This document shows positions 41,521-48,798 of a stretch of 64,000 nucleotides of DNA, in pieces; position 1 is the first letter of the stretch; every line of letters starts with the position of its first letter. The stretch is from Microcoleus sp. bin38.metabat.b11b12b14.051 (lineage in GTDB: Bacteria; Cyanobacteriota; Cyanobacteriia; Cyanobacteriales; Microcoleaceae), in NCBI RefSeq assembly GCF_013299165.1, contig NZ_JAAFKD010000013.1, positions 1-64,000 of the forward strand, written 5' to 3'. A program made the translations under genes and the position numbers. The notes beneath the pieces were generated by a model, which ran no database searches, was not told the origin of the DNA, and saw only the letters and a program-made list of their open reading frames with translations.

Positions 41521-41891
41521 TTGAAATTCCTTTCATTCCACACTGCCGATAATGATAATGGGAATTTCAGGGAAAAGAAACCTAATTTTTAATAAATATG
41601 TCTCAGCGGGGATTGACAGCGGCATCGGAAGGGCGATCGAATGCGATGGGATGCGGGCGATCGGCATAACCGCGATTTCAATCGCCGGGTGTATCTTTAG
41701 GGCGATCGGTCAGCAGGCCCTCAAAAAAAATTATTGTAGTACAGTTCAAACATCGGATTTACCTCGGGCTACAGCACCAGTTTAGCAGCCGAACGTCTTG
41801 ATTTATCGTTGTTTTTGGGGCGAGAGTGTTGGTGGGGGCGATCGACACCCACCTTAAAAAACCAAATTTAAAAAAAACTTGTATTACCCCC

Positions 41892-41921
41892 TTGACAGTC
41901 TCGTAGTACGCAGTGTAGTAT
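41892..41921 (+). promoter_or_regulatory. Candidate sigma70-type promoter of the tRNA array
   Basis: TTGACA at 41892-41897 and TAGTAT at 41916-41921 with an 18-bp spacer lie about 185 bp before the first tRNA. The leader between contains GGCGGT (from about 42023) paired with ACCGCC (near 42080), a possible folded pre-tRNA leader. The preceding 41521-41890 has no supported gene. Confidence 0.6.
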
Positions 41922-42108
41922 AAATGTATGGCGAAGGGGAAAAGCCTCAAAGCTTTATTCCAAAAGCAATACGAACTTTGAAAACAGAATAGATAATTAA
42001 TAGTGTCACATAATTGCGGACATTGGCGGTATAGACTCCGGTAACAAAAGCCCGATCGGGTTGTAGTACGCGGAATCAACCGCCATCCCGTCCAAACAGA
42101 AATCTTGT

Positions 42109-42181
42109 GGGGTTGTAGCTCAATTGGGAGAGCGTCGCTCTGTCACAGCGAAGGTAGCGGGATCGAAACCCGTCAGCCCCG
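42109..42181 (+). tRNA. tRNA-Asp(GTC)
   Basis: First gene of the array. Acceptor GGGGTTG/CAGCCCC, anticodon loop CTGTCAC. The T-loop reads ATCGAAA, with A in place of the nearly invariant T54, and CCA is not encoded. Confidence 0.85.
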
Positions 42182-42397
42182 TGAGGCGATTTTAGATTTT
42201 AGATTTTGGATTTTGGATTTTGAATGTTTTGATTTGAAATTTTCATATTTTCATCTTAAAAAATTGAGATTTAAAATTGAGATTTAAAATTGAGATTTTA
42301 GAGAAAATCTGCAATTGAATTACTTCGGTATTTCAAACGAGATAATACCAATTTCTCTGCGGGAAGGCATCGCCTACAAAACCCGTTGGGATTCCCT

Positions 42398-42471
42398 GGT
42401 TAGGTGGCTGAGTGGCTCAAAGCGTCGGTCTGCAAAACCGAATTTCGCGGGTTCAAATCCCGCCCTAACCT
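42398..42471 (+). tRNA. tRNA-Cys(GCA)
   Basis: Acceptor GGTTAGG/CCTAACC is perfect, anticodon loop CTGCAAA, T-arm GCGGG-TTCAAAT-CCCGC. The 216 bp before it consist of GATTTT(A/G)-type short repeats and a GGGAAGGCATCGCCTAC repeat. Confidence 0.93.
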
Positions 42472-42550
42472 CTGTTCCTATTTATTCACAGGAGCAATCT
42501 AAAATTCCCAAAAGCAATCCCAAATCTAAAATCTAAAATCTAAAATCAAT

Positions 42551-42624
42551 AGTGCTGTAGGCAAATGGTTTAAGCCGCTTGGTTTTCACCCAAGTGATTG
42601 CGGGTTCAACTCCCGTCAGCACTT
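42551..42624 (+). tRNA. tRNA-Glu(TTC)
   Basis: Acceptor AGTGCTG/CAGCACT, anticodon loop TTTTCAC, T-arm GCGGG-TTCAACT-CCCGT. The first pair A1-T72 is unusual for tRNA-Glu, which normally has G1-C72. Confidence 0.85.
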
Positions 42625-42635
42625 CCAAAATTCCA

Positions 42636-42717
42636 GGGTTGGCCCTCCTATTGGCGTGGGTAGCTGTCTGTAAAACAGTAGCTTAAAGCGTTGCTGGTTC
42701 AATTCCAGCCCGACCCA
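42636..42717 (+). tRNA. tRNA-Tyr(GTA)
   Basis: Class II tRNA with a long variable arm. Acceptor GGGTTGG/CCGACCC, anticodon loop CTGTAAA, T-arm GCTGG-TTCAATT-CCAGC. Confidence 0.9.
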
Positions 42718-42791
42718 TGCGATTTTAGATTTTAGATTTTAAATTTTGGATTTCAAGATTTAAGATTTGAGATTTAAGATTGTAAATTGTG

Positions 42792-42860
42792 CAAAAAACC
42801 CGGTTTCTGAGAAAAATTTTGCATCTCTACTAGAGATATTGAGATAGAAACCGGGTTTTT
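42792..42860. repeat. Dispersed palindromic element inside the tRNA array
   Basis: Arms AAAAAACCCGGTTTCT and AGAAACCGGGTTTTT, here in the opposite order to most copies, followed by GAGTAAGTCC. Confidence 0.75.
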
Positions 42861-42908
42861 GACCCCCGCGAGTAAGTCCTGTGTAGTTAATATGCAGTTC
42901 CAAAACAA

Positions 42909-42983
42909 GAGAATGTGTTGTAACTGGACAACAATTCAGCTTGCGCAACTGAAAAATTGAGGGTTCAAATCCCTCCGTTCTCG
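42909..42983 (+). tRNA. tRNA-like gene with a 9-nt anticodon loop (Ala TGC or Arg GCG?)
   Basis: Acceptor GAGAATG/CGTTCTC and T-arm GAGGG-TTCAAAT-CCCTC are sound. The anticodon stem TTCAG/CTGAA encloses nine bases, CTTGCGCAA, so the anticodon could be TGC or GCG. Function and identity are uncertain. Confidence 0.6.
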
Positions 42984-42991
42984 CTCATTGA

Positions 42992-43078
42992 GGAGAGGTG
43001 GCCGAGAGGCTTATGGCGCTTTCCTGCTAAGAAAGAGCGGCTTAACAACCGCCGTGGGTTCAAATCCCACCTTCTCCG
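42992..43078 (+). tRNA. tRNA-Ser(GCT)
   Basis: Class II with a good variable arm (AGCGG-CTTAACAA-CCGCC type). Acceptor GGAGAGG/CTTCTCC, anticodon loop CTGCTAA, T-arm GTGGG-TTCAAAT-CCCAC. Confidence 0.93.
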
Positions 43079-43082
43079 TTTT

Positions 43083-43155
43083 CCCCCGATAGCTCAGTTG
43101 GTAGAGTGCTTGTGTGAAGAACAAGAAGTCGTCAGTTCGATACTGACTTGGGGGA
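43083..43155 (+). tRNA. tRNA-Phe(GAA)
   Basis: Acceptor CCCCCGA/TTGGGGG, anticodon loop GTGAAGA, T-arm GTCAG-TTCGATA-CTGAC. Position 1 is C rather than G, unusual for tRNA-Phe. Confidence 0.88.
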
Positions 43156-43161
43156 TTGCGT

Positions 43162-43234
43162 TGCCTTATAGCTCAATTGGTAGAGCTGCACGCTGTTAAC
43201 GTGATGGTTGTAGGTTCGATTCCTACTGAGGCAG
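43162..43234 (+). tRNA. tRNA-Asn(GTT)
   Basis: Acceptor TGCCTTA/TGAGGCA, anticodon loop CTGTTAA, T-arm GTAGG-TTCGATT-CCTAC. Seven bases separate it from tRNA-Phe, so they are surely co-transcribed. The anticodon stem has one mismatch at its base. Confidence 0.9.
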
Positions 43235-43267
43235 CCATTTTTTATAGGAATTATGCACGGGTGGCCA

Positions 43268-43332
43268 GAAACCGGGTTTTTTACGAAGATTCTTCGCTGT
43301 AGTCCGTAGATTAGGTAAAAAACCCGGTTTCT
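43268..43332. repeat. Dispersed palindromic element inside the tRNA array
   Basis: Arms GAAACCGGGTTTTTT and AAAAAACCCGGTTTC flank about 34 bp, very like the copy at 17651. Confidence 0.78.
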
Positions 43333-43363
43333 TTGGTTATAAATGTGCAATTTCCGTTTAAAT

Positions 43364-43439
43364 TGCCTGGTAGACAAATTGGTAAAGTCGCCTGTCTCTG
43401 AAACAGGAATTTATGTAGGTTCAAAGCCTACCCAGGCAT
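43364..43439 (+). tRNA. tRNA-Gln(CTG)
   Basis: Acceptor TGCCTGG/CCAGGCA perfect, anticodon loop CTCTGAA, T-arm GTAGG-TTCAAAG-CCTAC. Confidence 0.9.
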
Positions 43440-43447
43440 TGAATTAT

Positions 43448-43521
43448 TCGGAAGTCGCCTAATTGGTATGGCACCGCTCTTTGAAAGCGGAATAATGCAG
43501 GTTCAAACCCTGCCTTCCGAG
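43448..43521 (+). tRNA. tRNA-Gln(TTG)
   Basis: Acceptor TCGGAAG/CTTCCGA, anticodon loop CTTTGAA, T-arm GCAGG-TTCAAAC-CCTGC. Its D-arm closely resembles that of the interrupted gene at 47372. Confidence 0.92.
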
Positions 43522-43551
43522 TTCTGCTTTTCCAAAAGCAGTAATGATGAT

Positions 43552-43625
43552 GCTCCTGTAGCCCAATTGGCAGAGGCCGCAAGCTCAAATCTTGTGTGTT
43601 ACTGGTTCAAATCCAGTCAGGAGTA
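43552..43625 (+). tRNA. tRNA with Leu anticodon CAA on a class I body
   Basis: Acceptor GCTCCTG/CAGGAGT, anticodon loop CTCAAAT, T-arm ACTGG-TTCAAAT-CCAGT. The variable loop has only about five bases, although bacterial tRNA-Leu should be class II. Confidence 0.82.
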
Positions 43626-43651
43626 CCAAATTTTCAACTGAGTTTCTACTT

Positions 43652-43732
43652 GCTCTTGTGGCGGAATTGGCAGACGCGGCAGACTTAAAATCTGTTCTAT
43701 TTTGATTGTGAGTTCGAGTCTCACCTGGAGCA
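43652..43732 (+). tRNA. tRNA-Leu(TAA)
   Basis: Proper class II leucine tRNA, 81 nt, anticodon loop CTTAAAA. It lacks the group I intron typical of the chromosomal cyanobacterial tRNA-Leu(UAA). One mismatch (T6-T67) in the acceptor stem. Confidence 0.88.
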
Positions 43733-43736
43733 TGAA

Positions 43737-43810
43737 CGGAATGTGGCGCAACTTGGTAGCGCGGCGGCTTTGGGAGCCGAAGGTTGCAGGTTCAAATCCT
43801 GCCATTCCGA
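43737..43810 (+). tRNA. tRNA-Pro(TGG)
   Basis: Acceptor CGGAATG/CATTCCG, anticodon loop TTTGGGA, T-arm GCAGG-TTCAAAT-CCTGC; canonical. Confidence 0.94.
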
Positions 43811-43814
43811 CTTT

Positions 43815-43888
43815 ACCTCTGTGATGTAATTGGAAAACATCACTCGCTTAGAACGAGTGTTTTGCTGGTTCGAGTCCAGTCAGGGGTA
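43815..43888 (+). tRNA. tRNA with Leu anticodon TAG on a class I body (copy 1)
   Basis: Acceptor ACCTCTG/CAGGGGT, anticodon stem ACTCG/CGAGT, loop CTTAGAA, T-arm GCTGG-TTCGAGT-CCAGT. Short variable loop GTTTT instead of a long arm. Confidence 0.82.
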
Positions 43889-43922
43889 TTGGGTATCAAA
43901 ACCCAAAAATGCGATCGATTTT

Positions 43923-43996
43923 ACCCTTGTAGCCCAATTGGTAGAGGCGCTAGATTTAGGATCTAGTCAGTGCTGGTTCGATGCCAGTCAGGGGTA
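43923..43996 (+). tRNA. tRNA with Leu anticodon TAG on a class I body (copy 2)
   Basis: Acceptor ACCCTTG/CAGGGGT, anticodon stem CTAGA/TCTAG, loop TTTAGGA, T-arm GCTGG-TTCGATG-CCAGT, short variable loop. It is related to copy 1 in acceptor and T-arm. Confidence 0.82.
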
Positions 43997-44007
43997 TTTG
44001 GTAACAT

Positions 44008-44083
44008 CGCGGGTGAAGTAGCCTGGGTAGGCTTGGAGGTCTCATAAGCCTCTTCATAGCAGGTTCAACTCCTGTCCCCGCTA
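44008..44083 (+). tRNA. tRNA-Met(CAT), initiator-like
   Basis: CGCGGGT/CCCCGCT with a C1-T72 mismatch, as in initiator tRNAs, and anticodon loop CTCATAA. T7-C66 is a second mismatch, and the GGG/CCC anticodon-stem pairs of initiators are not fully kept. CCA follows the discriminator A in the DNA. Confidence 0.75.
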
Positions 44084-44093
44084 CCAAAAATGC

Positions 44094-44162
44094 AGGTGTG
44101 ATGTAATTGGCAATATCAGGCTTTTGTATGGCCTTGTTGCAAGTTAAAATATCGCCATCTAG
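44094..44162 (+). tRNA. Decayed tRNA-Thr(TGT)-like gene
   Basis: D-arm ATGTAATTGGCAAT and anticodon arm AGGCT-TTTGTAT-GGCCT are recognisable, but the T-arm (GCAAG-TTAAAAT-ATCGC) does not pair and the acceptor has mismatches. Probably a pseudo-tRNA. Confidence 0.45.
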
Positions 44163-44169
44163 TCGGCGT

Positions 44170-44243
44170 GCTGGTGTAGCTCAATTAGGCAGAGCAACTG
44201 ATTTGTAATCAGTCGGTTGTAGGTTCAATTCCTATCACCAGCT
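44170..44243 (+). tRNA. tRNA-Thr(TGT)
   Basis: Acceptor GCTGGTG/CACCAGC, anticodon loop TTTGTAA, T-arm GTAGG-TTCAATT-CCTAT; canonical. Confidence 0.94.
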
Positions 44244-44251
44244 CCACAATT

Positions 44252-44322
44252 GCGAATATGGTGTAATGGTAGCATTCGAGTCTTCCAAACTCTAGGCACG
44301 AGTTCAAGTCCCATCATCCGCT
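44252..44322 (+). tRNA. tRNA-Gly(TCC)-like, degenerate
   Basis: Anticodon loop CTTCCAA and the D-arm are fine. The acceptor GCGAATA/CATCCGC has two mismatches and the T-stem pairs poorly, so activity is doubtful. Confidence 0.6.
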
Positions 44323-44327
44323 TTTGC

Positions 44328-44395
44328 AGTCCTGTAACTCAACGGTAGAGTGTTTGCCTTACAAGTAAGAGCGGGGTAATATCCTGCCAGGACTA
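44328..44395 (+). tRNA. tRNA-Val(TAC)-like, degenerate T-loop
   Basis: Acceptor AGTCCTG/CAGGACT is perfect and the anticodon loop is CTTACAA. The variable loop is reduced to about one base and the T-loop reads GTAATAT rather than TTCRANT. Confidence 0.65.
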
Positions 44396-44404
44396 CCAAT
44401 TTAC

Positions 44405-44477
44405 GGGGGTGTAGCTCAATGGATAGAGCGCCGCGCTTCGGACGCGGATGTTGTGGGTTCGAGTCCTACCACTCTCG
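44405..44477 (+). tRNA. tRNA-Arg(TCG)
   Basis: Acceptor GGGGGTG/CACTCTC (two G-T pairs), anticodon stem CCGCG/CGCGG, loop CTTCGGA, T-arm GTGGG-TTCGAGT-CCTAC. Last gene of the first block. Confidence 0.9.
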
Positions 44478-44558
44478 TTGTTTTTGCTAGAATTTAAGGA
44501 GGTTGATTCAATTGAATGATTAATTTTTTAGATTCCAAAACTTACATATCAGGCCTAA

Positions 44559-44622
44559 GAAACCGGGCTTTTATCTAATCTGTTGGCTACAGCTAAAGAT
44601 TTTCTCCAAAAACCCAGTTTCT
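44559..44622. repeat. Dispersed palindromic element
   Basis: Arms GAAACCGGGCTTTTAT and CCAAAAACCCAGTTTCT with the tail GACTATTGATGTGTAAGTC. Confidence 0.68.
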
Positions 44623-44652
44623 GACTATTGATGTGTAAGTCTTATGTTAAAC

Positions 44653-44884
44653 GCGATCGCACTTTTGCGTATCCCAACCTTTGGAGCCTACATACTTTAG
44701 TATGAGAGGAAAGGTAACGCTGTCAAAAAACAGCGTGCGTTTGTAAACGAGGAGTGCAGTGAACCCGATAGGTAGGCTTAAAAGTAGCCATCCTTTAAAG
44801 AGTGTGTAGTAACTCATCGGCGGAGTCCCTCTAGTAACTCAGAAAACGCAATGCTCTGATAACTTATACGCAAAGTGCGATCGC
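44653..44884 (+). ncRNA. Candidate structured RNA between tRNA array and RNA ligase gene
   Basis: The ends are complementary over about 19 bp: GCGATCGCACTTTTGCGTAT on the left and ATACGCAAAGTGCGATCGC on the right (one bulge). Inside are several hairpins: CATACT-tt-AGTATG, ACGCTGT-caaaaa-ACAGCGT, GTTTGTAAAC and a GGCTT/AGTAGCC arm, with no reading frame. A long closing stem with an internal folded region resembles the plan of bacterial Y RNAs, but I see no decisive Y-RNA signature. It could also be a small non-autonomous element with inverted ends. Part of the end pairing is the common HIP1 palindrome. Confidence 0.45.
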
Positions 44885-44990
44885 ACTATTTGAACTGAAT
44901 TTATTTGGTTCGTAGTGAGGACTTTAGTCCGCAAATTCAGAGGACTAAAGTCCGAACGATCGAACTGTAAGATTAGAAGGAGTTTCCCCC

Positions 44991-46277
44991 ATGCCTGTAA
45001 TTGTAATGGAAGTCAAAACCGCGCAAAATCATCCCAATGCTGATGCGCTCCATCTCTATAGTTTTGAAGCTCCGGGGCATGATGCCATACAAATTGTTGC
45101 CAACTCAGAAAACATTTATGATGTTGGCGATATCGTTGCCATAGCGTTAACTGATTCTGTGTTGAAAAACGGCACTAAAATCACACCTACAAAACTCCGA
45201 GGCGTTTATTCCTTTGGCATGGCTTTGGGGAAAGTTGACGAAGCAATCGGCACTGATTTGTCGGCAATTTATTGTCAAGAAACGGTAGAGCAATCGGCAC
45301 AAATGCAAACATGGCCGAGCATCGAACTGCTCTACAATCTCCGCCGCAGTTTAGAATTACTCGGGGAAACTCCTAAGATAATTTATCGAGCTAAAATTAA
45401 ACTCGACGGTACTAATGGAGGCATTCAAATCTTTACCGATGGTAAAGTTGTTGTCCAAAGTCGATCGCAAATCATTGACACGAAAAACGACAATCTCGGC
45501 TTTGCTAATTGGGTGAATCAAAATATCGATTTTTTCTCTCGATTGGCAAGTTCCGAACACGCAACTATCTTTGGGGAATGGTGCGGTAAAGGGATTCAGA
45601 AACGGACTGCTGTATCTGAGATCGATCGCAAAATCTTCGCGGTGTTTGCAGTTCAATTTGGCGGCGTGGATGGCAAAATTGCCAAACTGGAAATCCGCCC
45701 TGACAAAATCGCTGATTTCTTGCCTAAACATCCCGATATTTTCGTCTTGCCTTTTTACGGAGAACCGTTTGTTTTAGATTTTGGCGATTCAGAGCAACTA
45801 ACATCAGTTGTTGATACCATCAATCAAGTGGTTGATGTTGTAGAAAAAGTCGATCCTTGGGTGAAAGAAACTTTCGGCATCGCAGGAATTGGCGAAGGAT
45901 TGGTGCTGTTTCCCGAAAGCGGCGAACTTGCGGAAAGGCTGTCCTATGCAGAACTGCTGTTCAAAGCTAAAGGCGAAAAACACCAAGCTGTCAAAACCAA
46001 ACAACCTGTTCAAATCAACCCAGAAGTTGCTGAAAGTATTGACGATTTTGTGAATCTTTTTGTCACACCTGCTCGCCTAGAACAAGGGGTAACAGAAGTT
46101 TGTGGCGGTCACTTTAATATGGACAAAATCGGAGCATTTTTAAAGTGGTTTAATGCTGATGTACAGAAAGAAAGTGTTGCCGAACTAGAGGCTAGTCAAC
46201 TAACCTGGAAAGATGTCAACAAAGCAGTGATGAACGCAGCTAAAAAATGGTATCAAGAACAGGCTAAATCTTTGTAG
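44991..46277 (+). CDS. tRNA-binding domain fused to Rnl2-type RNA ligase
   Basis: This 428-residue protein joins two RNA-handling modules. Residues 1-105 are a tRNA-binding OB domain of the EMAP-II/Arc1p/MetRS C-terminal type (VKTAQNHPNADALHLYSFEA, IQIVANSENIYDVGDIVAIAL, KITPTKLRGVYSFGMALG). Residues 125-335 are a nucleotidyltransferase core of RNA ligases: motif I KLDGTN with the adenylated Lys137, motif III FGEWCGKG, motif IV EGLVLF and motif V KAKGEKH. The last 85 residues are helical, as in T4 Rnl2. It should seal nicks in RNA with 3'-OH and 5'-phosphate ends, with tRNA as the obvious substrate. A strong AAGGAG lies 9 bp before the ATG. It sits between two tRNA blocks on the same strand. 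No kinase/phosphatase partner is visible. Confidence 0.88.
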   Translation: MPVIVMEVKTAQNHPNADALHLYSFEAPGHDAIQIVANSENIYDVGDIVAIALTDSVLKNGTKITPTKLRGVYSFGMALGKVDEAIGTDLSAIYCQETVEQSAQMQTWPSIELLYNLRRSLELLGETPKIIYRAKIKLDGTNGGIQIFTDGKVVVQSRSQIIDTKNDNLGFANWVNQNIDFFSRLASSEHATIFGEWCGKGIQKRTAVSEIDRKIFAVFAVQFGGVDGKIAKLEIRPDKIADFLPKHPDIFVLPFYGEPFVLDFGDSEQLTSVVDTINQVVDVVEKVDPWVKETFGIAGIGEGLVLFPESGELAERLSYAELLFKAKGEKHQAVKTKQPVQINPEVAESIDDFVNLFVTPARLEQGVTEVCGGHFNMDKIGAFLKWFNADVQKESVAELEASQLTWKDVNKAVMNAAKKWYQEQAKSL

Positions 46278-46299
46278 TTATTCGGGGAAAGGATCATGG

Positions 46300-46359
46300 T
46301 AGGGTGCGTCGCTTCTTAAATAGTTGTAATTCGCCAGAATAGTCGGGCGACGCACCCTA
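46300..46359. repeat. Inverted repeat with TAGGGTGCGTCGC ends
   Basis: TAGGGTGCGTCGC and GCGACGCACCCTA flank about 34 bp. A sister copy lies at 51881-51942. Confidence 0.75.
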
Positions 46360-46395
46360 CTGTTGGCTTTGTAGTTATTGCAACCATAAATCAAA

Positions 46396-46459
46396 GAAAC
46401 TGGGTTTTTTACCGAATCTGCGATTAACAATGAAGTATTTTCGCAAAAACCCGGTTTCT
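46396..46459. repeat. Dispersed palindromic element
   Basis: Arms GAAACTGGGTTTTTT and AAAAACCCGGTTTC, followed by TGACCACCCATGCGTGAGTC. Confidence 0.72.
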
Positions 46460-46508
46460 GACCACCCATGCGTGAGTCCTATTAATATTGCAAATCAACA
46501 AAAAATAC

Positions 46509-46582
46509 GGGAGTGTAACTCAACTGGATAGAGTGTCGAGCTTCTACCTCGAATGTTGTAGGTTCAAGTCCTACCACTCCTG
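46509..46582 (+). tRNA. tRNA-Arg(TCT)
   Basis: First gene of the second block. Acceptor GGGAGTG/CACTCCT, anticodon stem TCGAG/CTCGA, loop CTTCTAC, T-arm GTAGG-TTCAAGT-CCTAC. Confidence 0.9.
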
Positions 46583-46588
46583 CTGAAT

Positions 46589-46662
46589 GGGTTCGTAGCT
46601 TAATTGGTAAAGCATCTAACTGGCTGTTAGAAAGATATCGGTTCAAATCCGATCGCAATCCA
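46589..46662 (+). tRNA. tRNA-Ala(GGC) with bulged acceptor
   Basis: Anticodon stem TCTAA/TTAGA, loop CTGGCTG, T-arm ATCGG-TTCAAAT-CCGAT. The acceptor GGGTTCG pairs with CGCAATCC only if one 3' base is bulged. Confidence 0.75.
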
Positions 46663-46670
46663 CCAACTTT

Positions 46671-46744
46671 GGGTCTGTAGCTTAATCGGAAAAGTGCCTA
46701 GTTCGCAACTAGGAAAATGTCGGTTCGAGTCCGACCAGTATCCA
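46671..46744 (+). tRNA. tRNA-Ala(CGC) with bulged acceptor
   Basis: Anticodon stem CCTAG/CTAGG, loop TTCGCAA, T-arm GTCGG-TTCGAGT-CCGAC. The acceptor GGGTCTG pairs with CAGTATCC with one extra 3' base. Confidence 0.75.
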
Positions 46745-46752
46745 CCCAAAAA

Positions 46753-46847
46753 GGGGTCATAGCTCAATTGGTAGAGCGCTTGCTTTGCACGCAAGAGGTT
46801 AGGAGTACCCTTCGGGAAGGCTTCGCCTACGATTCTCCTTGATTCCA
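46753..46847 (+). tRNA. tRNA-Ala(TGC) with a ~22-bp insertion in the T-loop
   Basis: Acceptor GGGGTCA/TGATTCC, D-arm GCTCAATTGGTAGAGC and anticodon arm CTTGC-TTTGCAC-GCAAG are canonical. The T-stem AGGAG/CTCCT is intact, but its loop is split by about 22 bases containing CCCTTCGGGAAGGCTTCGCC, a short repeat common in cyanobacteria. Without removal the TTCGATT loop cannot form. Confidence 0.75.
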
Positions 46848-46851
46848 CTGC

Positions 46852-46926
46852 GGTGTCTGAAGCCAAAGCGGTAGCGGCGCTGGTTTGTGGAACCAGTAAT
46901 AGCGGGTTCAATTCCCGTCAGACACC
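46852..46926 (+). tRNA. tRNA-His(GTG)
   Basis: Eight-pair acceptor GGTGTCTG/CAGACACC gives the histidine-specific G-1:C73 pair. Anticodon stem CTGGT/ACCAG, loop TTGTGGA, T-arm GCGGG-TTCAATT-CCCGT. Confidence 0.93.
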
Positions 46927-46930
46927 CCTC

Positions 46931-47013
46931 GGAAGATGCCGCTAAACGGTTGGCAACTGGTCTCGAAAACCAGGGTACAGGTAACTGTAAGGGTTCGATT
47001 CCTTCATCTTCCT
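46931..47013 (+). tRNA. tRNA-Ser(CGA)
   Basis: Class II. Acceptor GGAAGAT/ATCTTCC, anticodon stem CTGGT/ACCAG, loop CTCGAAA, long variable arm. The T-stem AAGGG/CCTTC has one A-C mismatch, shared with the next serine gene. Confidence 0.87.
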
Positions 47014-47047
47014 TGTAATATCAAATCTGCTTAGTTGCACCGATAAT

Positions 47048-47207
47048 TATAGGGAAACAGCACTGCTGTGTTCCTACGGATAGGTTGCGATGTGGCAGGA
47101 ATTTGATTCACCACCGGAAGCCGAGAAGCGAGGCGCTGTGCTGATAACGCAGAGGTAGAAGGGGCAGTACCTTCCCGGTGGATTTCCTATAGTTTAGCTA
47201 TGGGAAT
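47048..47207 (+). ncRNA. Candidate structured segment between the two serine tRNAs
   Basis: Three successive hairpins can be drawn: GGAAACAGCA-c-TGCTGTGTTCC near 47052-47073, a larger one closed by CCACCGG (47111) and CCGGTGG (47175), and CCTATAG/CTATGGG near 47186-47204. No tRNA fold or reading frame is evident. It may be spacer RNA removed during processing. Confidence 0.35.
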
Positions 47208-47226
47208 CATGGATACTTTGCATCAT

Positions 47227-47312
47227 GGAAGATGCCGCTAAATGGCCAGCAACTTGTCTTGAAAACAAGGGTACAGGTAACACCTGTAAGGGTTCGATTC
47301 CTTCATCTTCCT
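47227..47312 (+). tRNA. tRNA-Ser(TGA)
   Basis: Class II, nearly identical to tRNA-Ser(CGA) in acceptor and T-arm; anticodon stem CTTGT/ACAAG, loop CTTGAAA. The pair probably arose by duplication and anticodon change. Confidence 0.88.
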
Positions 47313-47371
47313 TAATGAAATATTCTTGCACTTCGTAGATAGATTTGTTATCCTGTACGAATAGGAAGTTT

Positions 47372-47629
47372 GGGGAGGTCGCCTAATTGGAATGGCACCG
47401 TAAAAACTAGGTAAAGCGGCTCTCAAAAGGACGATCGAGTTTGTTGAGTAGGGTAAAAAGTTGCTTCGCGACGTTCCCTGAAAGCGCAAATTGGCAGCGG
47501 GTTGCAGAGGCACTGAAAGGAATTAACAGTCCGAGATGGGGGTAGTTCCCGTCTGCTTACAGGTAGTAAGGAAGCGCGTTTCCTGAAAGTTGCTGTCGAT
47601 CGATGCGGGTTCGAGTCCCGTCCTCTCCA
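47372..47629 (+). tRNA. Interrupted tRNA-like gene with ~185-nt structured insert
   Basis: The 5' part (GGGGAGG-TC-GCCTAATTGGAATGGC-A-CCG) matches a tRNA up to the anticodon stem and resembles tRNA-Gln(TTG). The 3' part (GCGGG-TTCGAGT-CCCGT-CCTCTCC-A) supplies the T-arm and a fitting acceptor strand. Between them lies folded sequence with hairpins such as GATGGG/CCCGTC and CTTAC/GTAAG. CCGT can pair with GCGG downstream, leaving a T-G pair like a group I 5' splice site, and CTCTCAAA follows as in the cyanobacterial tRNA-Leu intron. A full group I core and a matching 3' anticodon-stem strand are not found, so it may be a decayed intron or a composite pseudogene. Confidence 0.5.
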
Positions 47630-47812
47630 TTTGTGATTGAAAAGCAAGGAGTGTCAATCCGTGCGCTGACATCAGCTTATCTCGTTTTGAGACCGATCGC
47701 CCTTTCCTACAATTGTCTCTAGGGATGCGGGCGATCGCGCATTTGAAAAGCGACTGCTACGATGGTTTCAGCCTTGGTGATTTCCAAAACTTCTTAACAA
47801 ACAAGATTAAAC

Positions 47813-48696: not shown

Positions 48697-48702
48697 CAGT
48701 TA

Positions 48703-48798
48703 GTGAAGGCGATCGCGATCGAACAAGGTATGCGTTTTGCCATTCGTGAAGGCGATCGTACCGTCGGTGCGGGTGTCGTCTCCAAAATTCAGCGGTAG
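48703..48798 (+). pseudogene. C-terminal fragment of elongation factor Tu
   Basis: The 31 codons read [20 protein letters not shown] and [15 protein letters not shown], the C-terminal end of EF-Tu domain III ([16 protein letters not shown]). The other 380 residues are absent. A terminator hairpin follows directly, so the 3' end of a tuf transcription unit seems to have been copied here. Confidence 0.8.

Follow-up and report, generated by a model that had tools for sequence, protein, structure and literature searches.

In Anabaena PCC 7120, the repressor TrcR keeps the trn operon silent through the site TGTAGTAT over the -10 box, which has been footprinted, and deletion of trcR raises the expression of trn, rtcB, a TIGR02452 gene and an HNH gene (PMC10272220). 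Arrays of the trn type are known to stay silent until translation is disturbed. They aid survival under translation inhibitors, as cited in the same paper (PMC10272220). Here, we report a related long tRNA array (L-array) in Microcoleus sp. bin38.metabat.b11b12b14.051, on contig NZ_JAAFKD010000013.1; the whole stretch analyzed, positions 1 to 64,000, is called the window. Inside this array lie a gene for an RNA ligase with a tRNA-binding domain (TRBD) and a 205-nucleotide (nt) RNA that resembles two elements of the ribosomal factor site. With modest confidence, we lean towards reading the locus as a TrcR-controlled translation-stress island that would supply spare tRNAs, reseal RNA and provide a decoy of the ribosomal factor site. 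Its features are as follows.

41735 to 41742, plus strand: TrcR-like site TGTAGTAC, upstream of the promoter.
41892 to 41921, plus strand: array promoter TTGACA-18-TAGTAT, of sequence TTGACAGTCTCGTAGTACGCAGTGTAGTAT (10 of 12 matches; the best plus-strand promoter match).
41914 to 41921, plus strand: TrcR-type operator TGTAGTAT over the -10 box, with CGTAGTAC immediately before it.
41922 to 42107, plus strand: predicted transcript leader; contains a TTTGAAAACAGAATAG motif and another copy of TGTAGTAC (42062 to 42069).
42108 to 44478, plus strand: tRNA block 1, 20 genes (ARAGORN and Rfam).
44667 to 44871, plus strand: structured RNA of 205 nt with a sarcin-ricin-loop (SRL) motif and a GTPase-associated-center (GAC) fold (BLAST and alignment).
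44699 to 44709, plus strand: SRL-like motif AGTATGAGAGG, which reads AGTACGAGAGG in the other 20 aligned copies.
44765 to 44820, plus strand: GAC- or L11-domain-like part, matching positions 1093 to 1148 of the large-subunit (LSU) rRNA model (46.5 bits, E 7.9e-12).
44991 to 46277, plus strand: TRBD-Rnl2-type RNA ligase of 428 amino acids (aa), with PF01588 and PF09414.
46509 to 47312, plus strand: tRNA block 2, seven genes (Arg, Ala, Ala, Ala, His, Ser, Ser).

ARAGORN finds 24 plus-strand tRNA genes between 42108 and 47312, and Rfam at gathering score adds three (42636-42717, 44328-44395, and 46753-46847, which are Tyr, Val, and Ala by anticodons read by eye), for an array total of 27. An earlier reading of the letters alone (the sequence-only reading) had counted 29 tRNA or tRNA-like genes; 27 are thus borne out and two more were not found, one of which may be an interrupted stretch at about 47377-47632 with a 12.6-bit tmRNA match. 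The ARAGORN and Rfam calls also bear out its 17 amino-acid identities, from which Ile, Lys, and Trp are absent, and the two plus-strand blocks that it placed around a TRBD-RNA ligase gene are confirmed. Block 1 runs Asp, Cys, Glu, Tyr, Arg, Ser, Phe, Asn, Gln, Gln, Leu, Leu, Pro, Leu, Leu, Met, Thr, Gly, Val, Arg, and the gap between its last gene, Arg(tcg) at 44404-44478, and Arg(tct), which begins at 46509, is filled by the structured RNA and the ligase gene. The tRNA-Ala at 46753-46847, overlooked by ARAGORN, has an insertion of about 20 nt.

Elsewhere in the host genome (7.07 Mb, 99.85% complete) 42 further tRNA genes were found with 150 of 429 candidates scored, and no Asn and no Ile(gat) tRNA was among the candidates scored outside the array. 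Because the array tRNAs are only 51-84% identical to the best copy for the same amino acid elsewhere in the host and their anticodon loops are still readable, we regard them as an old second set, not recent copies. In all five arrays compared, tRNA genes are better conserved than spacers, from 0.94 against 0.91 (locus L144) up to 0.93 against 0.57 (L151). The idea that the array might supply uncleavable tRNA variants found no consistent sign: the anticodon stem-loops of 24 array tRNAs show scattered differences from copies elsewhere and follow no rule. Dispersed repeats of the AAACCGGGTTTTT and ATTTTAGATTT types occupy the spacers at 43239-43340, 42188-42753, and 46389-46490, and the AAACCGGGTTTTT type has numerous matches across host and sister genomes. 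An EF-Tu gene adjoins the arrays L034, L036, L038, L147-L149, L153, and L154, and the window has only an EF-Tu remnant, at about 48697-48789, downstream of the array.

The one good promoter that the sequence-only reading saw in front of the array is the TTGACA-18-TAGTAT match listed above. Promoter-like matches as such occur across the window at chance level (11 found against 9.9 in shuffles), and its weight therefore comes from conservation across arrays. The 420 bp that precede the presumed first tRNA contain TTGACA with TrcR-type sites at 29 of 35 array loci, of which 22 belong to the 25 genus loci and 7 to the 10 others; the operator-led loci outside the genus include two Nostoc plasmids and a Kovacikia plasmid. 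A TrcR-type site 4-20 nt after TTGACA has 44 occurrences in 5.04 million strand-bases, arrays included. The six loci without these sites are L034, L036, L061, L158, L037, and L050; the last two arrays start at Arg, and a search for an Asp tRNA in them found none. The overlap of the operator with the -10 box matches the site footprinted in Anabaena, a sequence match from which binding is predicted, and many genus arrays are preceded by a TrcR-like site at an upstream position similar to that of 41735-41742. These comparisons support conservation of the operator. Together with a dense, one-strand, multi-isoacceptor array that is extra to the housekeeping tRNAs, an L-array trait, they class the window array as a TrcR-type cyanobacterial L-array, and the likeness to Anabaena drawn by the sequence-only reading holds down to TGTAGTAT over the -10 box.

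The candidate for TrcR in the host is a 114-aa ribbon-helix-helix-like protein that scores 18 bits against PF01402, where the cut-off is 20.5. Upstream of its gene lies GTAATATCAGTGTAGTAT, which equals the published TrcR motif with two mismatches and for which a reversed-pattern control did equally well (4 against 4). The neighboring gene is a divergent HNH gene, as in Anabaena, where the HNH gene of the TrcR regulon adjoins the L-array. Judged by these features, the host gene is likely a TrcR homolog. Motifs like TTTGAAAACAGAATAG occur in many of the arrays examined and may serve antitermination or processing. The TTTGAAAACAGAATAG leader presumably resembles those of rRNA operons; one search in the host for likeness to its own rRNA-operon leaders gave no long match.

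The ligase matches PF01588 (tRNA-binding domain) over residues 4-83 with 29.3 bits and PF09414 (RNA_ligase) over residues 135-311 with 42.6 bits, each against a cut-off of 27. Its TRBD has PheRS-beta and YtpR-like matches, the PheRS-beta sequence match covering residues 3-89. A profile of the catalytic part aligns to T4 Rnl2 (E 2.5e-12) such that the nucleotidyltransferase motifs coincide, and the Rnl2-type assignment made in the sequence-only reading stands on these motifs. They comprise KLDG (137-140), FGEWCG (194-199), EG (302-303), and KAK (325-327), and we take the conserved blocks to be nucleotidyltransferase motifs I, III, IIIa, IV, and V. K137, G140, E196, K325, and K327 are invariant in an alignment of 25 ligase proteins out of 120 listed. 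Against TIGR02306 (Rnl5) the protein scores 23.8 bits where 151.15 are needed, which places it outside that family by this test. An AlphaFold model (mean pLDDT 82.7) retrieved Naegleria RNA ligase, T4 Rnl2, and PheRS-beta with Foldseek, all at low TM-scores, and the closest proteins among named matches belong to the Microcoleus group. Pairwise dN/dS values against seven array ligases are 0.14-0.18, which supports purifying selection on the ligase. A related ligase without a TRBD follows a gene of the RlaP nucleotidyltransferase family, a named RNA-repair family, at L171 7874-10229; no tRNA was found on that 11-kb contig.

The pairing of ligase and array, whose co-occurrence was the check put forward in the sequence-only reading, recurs in other genomes. 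Genome contigs contain 30 ligase loci, 21 of them cyanobacterial, and at 12 of these 21 there are 10 or more tRNAs on one strand within 5 kb. Among the remaining cyanobacterial loci, L042 (on a 5-kb contig) has three tRNAs and eight have none, including L051 on a 4-kb contig. The nine non-cyanobacterial loci include L061 from a Neisseriaceae bin, with 18 tRNAs within 5 kb, L060 with one, and six with none. In a class sample of 388 genomes the ligase was present in six, every time inside an array (five of the six loci coincide with genome-contig loci or the window by matched coordinates). In a quick tree built from 70 ligases, for which 37 of 80 viral loci were used, 14 array loci from several families share one branch (SH-aLRT 93, not starred) and the array ligase L040 stands apart; the cyanobacterial ligases lie amid those of two Deltaproteobacteria, other bacteria, and viruses. 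The linkage thus appears to have arisen rarely and to have been kept. Stand-alone ligases give an independent sign that ligase and array share a function, since four of the eight array-less cyanobacterial ligases (L041, L046, L047, L048) carry a TrcR-like site at most 100 bp upstream, against 2 of 96 other open reading frames (ORFs) at the array-less loci (Fisher p 2e-4). We regard the link, as far as these comparisons reach, as real but optional. A Deltaproteobacterial TRBD-ligase at L052 8534-9190 adjoins six tRNA-Ser genes on the opposite strand.

The structured RNA between block 1 and the ligase gene was missed by the sequence-only reading, as were the operator and the ADP-ribose hydrolases of sister arrays. 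We take the AGTACGAGAGG-type motif to be a sarcin-ricin loop, the same sequence being present in the 23S rRNA of L296, and positions 1093-1148 of the LSU rRNA model to be the GAC, or L11 domain. RF02541 (bacterial LSU rRNA) picks out only the 56-nt piece in a permissive Rfam scan, its 46.5 bits not reaching the gathering score of 50. About 55 nt separate the SRL motif from the GAC-like three-way junction. Near-full-length copies were found by nhmmer at 22 distinct loci: 15 of the 25 genus arrays, the array loci L034, L036, and L042, the small clusters L255 and L256, a Kovacikia plasmid (3.7 kb beyond the array), and a Dolichospermum plasmid stretch without tRNAs. None was found in other arrays examined, for example L040, L043, L044, L054, L061, L161, L162, and L170.

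A structure of 49 pairs, 45 from the RNAalifold consensus and 4 of the SRL stem added by hand, was applied to 21 of the 22 loci (L034, partly masked, was left out), and 97.2% of cells are paired. Seventeen pairs are changed on both sides, in 35 cells, against 4.5 +/- 1.5 in shuffles and 1-2 when the structure is slid, a comparison that does not amount to a probability because the sequences are related and the structure stems largely from the same alignment. Such pairs occur in seven of nine helices, the exceptions being the SRL stem and helix 9, and the SRL motif itself is near-invariant. Exact AGTACGAGAGG is listed at 28 places in 6.1 million strand-bases: 26 in the RNA (some from overlapping loci), one in true 23S, and one elsewhere. 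The fold of the 205-nt unit is supported by this covariation, and the conservation suggests a previously unnoticed RNA class, predicted to be transcribed as a stable RNA.

GAC-like parts also occur in 33 viral contigs (L263-L295, several near-identical), 24 of them with at least one tRNA within 2.5 kb and nine without; matches to an rRNA-bearing plasmid never exceed 225 bases in any of the viral stretches. The Pseudomonas phages pf16 (L297 4001-4035) and Astolliot (L299 4001-4035) have an unannotated GAC-like RNA in or next to a tRNA cluster. The SRL motif is absent from the 33 viral stretches and from those of pf16 and Astolliot. At L263, GOLLD RNA lies beside the GAC-like RNA. T4 rnaC and rnaD were considered as relatives of the 205-nt RNA and set aside, their similarity being no better than that of shuffles.

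Sister arrays contain other cargo, surveyed here for ORFs of at least 100 aa, namely TIGR02452/PARG (E 4e-105), Macro-domain, and NADAR proteins. PARG is present in 15 of 59 relatives, and 12 of the 15 copies lie in tRNA arrays or small tRNA clusters. Within the genus 10 of 11 copies are inside the array; outside it, PARG sits in small clusters behind TrcR-like sites at L255 (8 tRNAs) and L256 (2), and near no tRNA at L254, L257, and L258. A TrcR-type site precedes 11 of the 12 clustered genes, the exception being L158. In another family (genome G271, locus L170), an unrelated canonical Macro gene neighbors the ligase, flanked by Thr and Gly tRNAs in an array of 24 genes. The window array has no ADP-ribose hydrolase among its ORFs, and some arrays have homing-type endonuclease ORFs. 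A TrcR-like site lies within 330 bp upstream of rtcB at 6 of 30 loci, host and L244 included, which we do not count as evidence.

A vWA protein is encoded near arrays at L147 12044-14328, L035 17012-19335, and L163 9062-11262, and in the host at contig C13 75233-76663, outside the window. The gene is present in 34 of 59 genomes and is therefore not array-specific; the protein has no Pfam or NCBIfam match and no PDB relative, and its model is poor (pLDDT 59). A Ro60-Y RNA module was considered for it and not retained, the upstream YrlA matches being weak and unproven: the YrlA model also touches ordinary tRNA pairs, and no match was found upstream of the gene at L054 or in the host.

In the stress-island reading, blocked or damaged translation would lift TrcR repression, and one transcript, possibly with internal starts, would yield about 27 spare tRNAs, the 205-nt RNA, and the ligase. 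The spare tRNAs would replace lost ones, and the ligase would reseal nicked tRNA or rRNA with 3'-OH and 5'-phosphate ends. PIN/VapC-type toxins cleave the sarcin-ricin loop as well as tRNA anticodons, and the 3'-OH and 5'-phosphate ends that result can be joined by an Rnl2-type ligase, so that no end-healing enzyme would be needed. The 205-nt RNA could act as a decoy for toxins or drugs at the sarcin-ricin loop or the L11/thiostrepton site, or alternatively could bind L11 or a translational GTPase. The ADP-ribose hydrolases of related arrays indicate that ADP-ribosylating damage may also be involved, and together with the ligase and the factor-center RNA copy they point to RNA damage as the stress; the damage would consist of cleaved tRNAs and of a ribosomal factor site that is cut, modified, or drugged. 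The data support the array with its conserved operator, the family and motifs of the ligase together with purifying selection on it, the recurrence of the cargo, and the fold of the RNA; co-transcription, tRNA sealing, and decoy action are inferred. The sequence-only reading, which saw an island that replaces and reseals damaged tRNAs, is in this sense partly supported. We see an even chance that the RNA represents a new structured class in which SRL and GAC, the rRNA docking elements for translational GTPases, share one 205-nt molecule, that it is made with spare tRNAs, ligase, and (in sister arrays) hydrolases, and that cyanobacteria, as well as many phages by way of the GAC half, thereby possess free-standing decoys of the factor site against ribotoxins or antibiotics. 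For the question of what L-arrays respond to in nature, the recurrent cargo offers a testable idea, toxin damage at anticodons and at the factor site. If this is true, a natural RNA that copies the target of drugs of the thiostrepton type and toxins of the sarcin type would matter for ribosome biology, toxin-antitoxin systems, and antibiotic tolerance, and the GAC-like halves in phage tRNA clusters would suggest what unannotated phage RNA might do.

Several observations weigh against the stress-island reading. Orthologous arrays are present in 25 of 29 genus genomes (by a DNA match read by eye, leaving out a dispersed repeat present in the query, and confirmed by tRNA scans), and 18 of these 25 have no ligase, which does not fit the notion of a special array wrapped around that gene. 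The ligase occurs in seven of the 25 array-bearing genomes and in none of the four others, a difference that is not significant on its own (Fisher p 0.55), and the argument for linkage therefore rests on location and operators. A tblastn search of the plasmid collection found no ligase. The linked ligases fall mostly in one clade of the quick tree, so that the linkage has few origins and its loci do not count as independent cases; two in-array ligases (L045 and L054) have no TRBD, which rules out this domain as a condition for array linkage. Of 59 genomes, 53 have RtcB, whether or not they also carry the TRBD-Rnl2-type ligase, and complementarity between the two was considered and dropped for lack of a trade-off. 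Only nine PIN matches were found in the host, two of them interrupted. Concerning the RNA, the limit on the shuffle comparison applies here as well; the SRL stem has no double-changed pair among its four and only 87.3% of its cells are paired, and no copy of the RNA turned up at 10 of the 25 array loci in the genus, a few of which lie on short contigs. The strict TrcR pattern was not found within 400 bp ahead of five copies from outside the genus, at L042, L163, L255, L256, and L298. The phage and viral copies consist of the GAC part only, and a gapped SRL plus GAC pattern found none in viral contigs.

A different account sees the locus as a phage-derived anti-defense cassette of tRNAs, ligase, and GAC RNA that cyanobacteria have captured and now use against anticodon nucleases or phages. 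We find it possible, on balance doubtful; as it concerns origin, it can be compatible with the stress island. On the tree the cyanobacterial clade lies among viral ligases, 213 phage records have a ligase match (all below 60% identity), and GAC-like RNAs stand in phage tRNA clusters such as those of pf16 and Astolliot. In jumbo phages, tRNAs occur together with RNA ligases, Macro/NADAR, and TROVE proteins (PMC7824862). On the other hand, the TrcR operator is of host type, the nearest relatives of the cyanobacterial ligase clade are two Deltaproteobacteria and not viruses, and the neighbors of the window array look cellular by eye, where no search aimed at phage genes was made.

We judge it similarly doubtful that the 205-nt RNA is a regulator, which would titrate L11, L10/L12, or a translational GTPase and so tune ribosome assembly or the stringent response. 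The preserved L11-domain sequence and three-way junction and the EF-Tu genes beside several arrays fit this role, which alone explains neither the SRL motif nor the repair cargo. Less probable still is that the array only supplies stress tRNAs while ligase, hydrolases, and RNA are passengers in a permissive silent region. The cargo is patchy, homing-endonuclease-like and transposase-like ORFs occur in arrays (some named from sequence by eye), and L-arrays are said to spread horizontally; however, mere passengers would hardly show ligase dN/dS values this low, TrcR-like sites on stand-alone ligases, three recurring ADP-ribose hydrolase families, or a covarying RNA. That the 205-nt RNA is a decayed 23S rRNA fragment, as the Rfam match to a mere 56-nt LSU piece might suggest, is highly improbable, since the two motifs lie about 1.45 kb apart in the 23S rRNA of L296 and about 55 nt apart here, the flanking helices are its own and covary, and all 205 nt are kept across families (177-244 bits, against 38 bits over 63 positions for the true 23S of L296).

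Among the matches listed, titles and abstract beginnings describe neither a ligase inside an L-array nor an SRL-GAC RNA; this does not cover the original L-array paper or the Burroughs and Aravind RNA-repair survey, either of which may describe parts of the system. The Anabaena PCC 7120 L-array shares with the stress island proposed here the long one-strand array, TGTAGTAT over the -10 box, and a second tRNA set, and its TrcR regulon includes a TIGR02452 gene, as carried by sister arrays here, and the RNA ligase RtcB (PMC10272220). In contrast, the window array itself holds a TRBD-Rnl2-type ligase and a factor-center-mimic RNA. The plasmid arrays L161-L163 have no ligase and none has the RNA inside, the L163 copy lying 3.7 kb past the last tRNA. 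With T4 Rnl2 and phage Rnl2-like ligases the motifs align over about 270 positions, the C-terminal part included, whereas the window ligase adds an N-terminal OB domain of PheRS-beta/YtpR type and is encoded within a cellular tRNA array. Rnl5 ligases (Naegleria NgrRnl, Deinococcus DRB0094/TIGR02306) join an N-terminal OB-type domain to a nucleotidyltransferase; NgrRnl is the top Foldseek match (E 5e-12, TM only 0.3-0.4), but the window ligase has an Rnl2-like C-terminal part. The RNA-repair sets of jumbo phages share tRNAs, RNA ligases, Macro, and NADAR (PMC7824862), while the present island is cellular, led by a TrcR operator, and contains the SRL-GAC RNA. Finally, the GAC and sarcin-ricin loop of 23S rRNA share with this RNA the L11-domain sequence, the three-way junction, and the AGUACGAGAGG motif, whereas here both elements are brought to within about 55 nt of each other in one 205-nt RNA with closing helices of its own.

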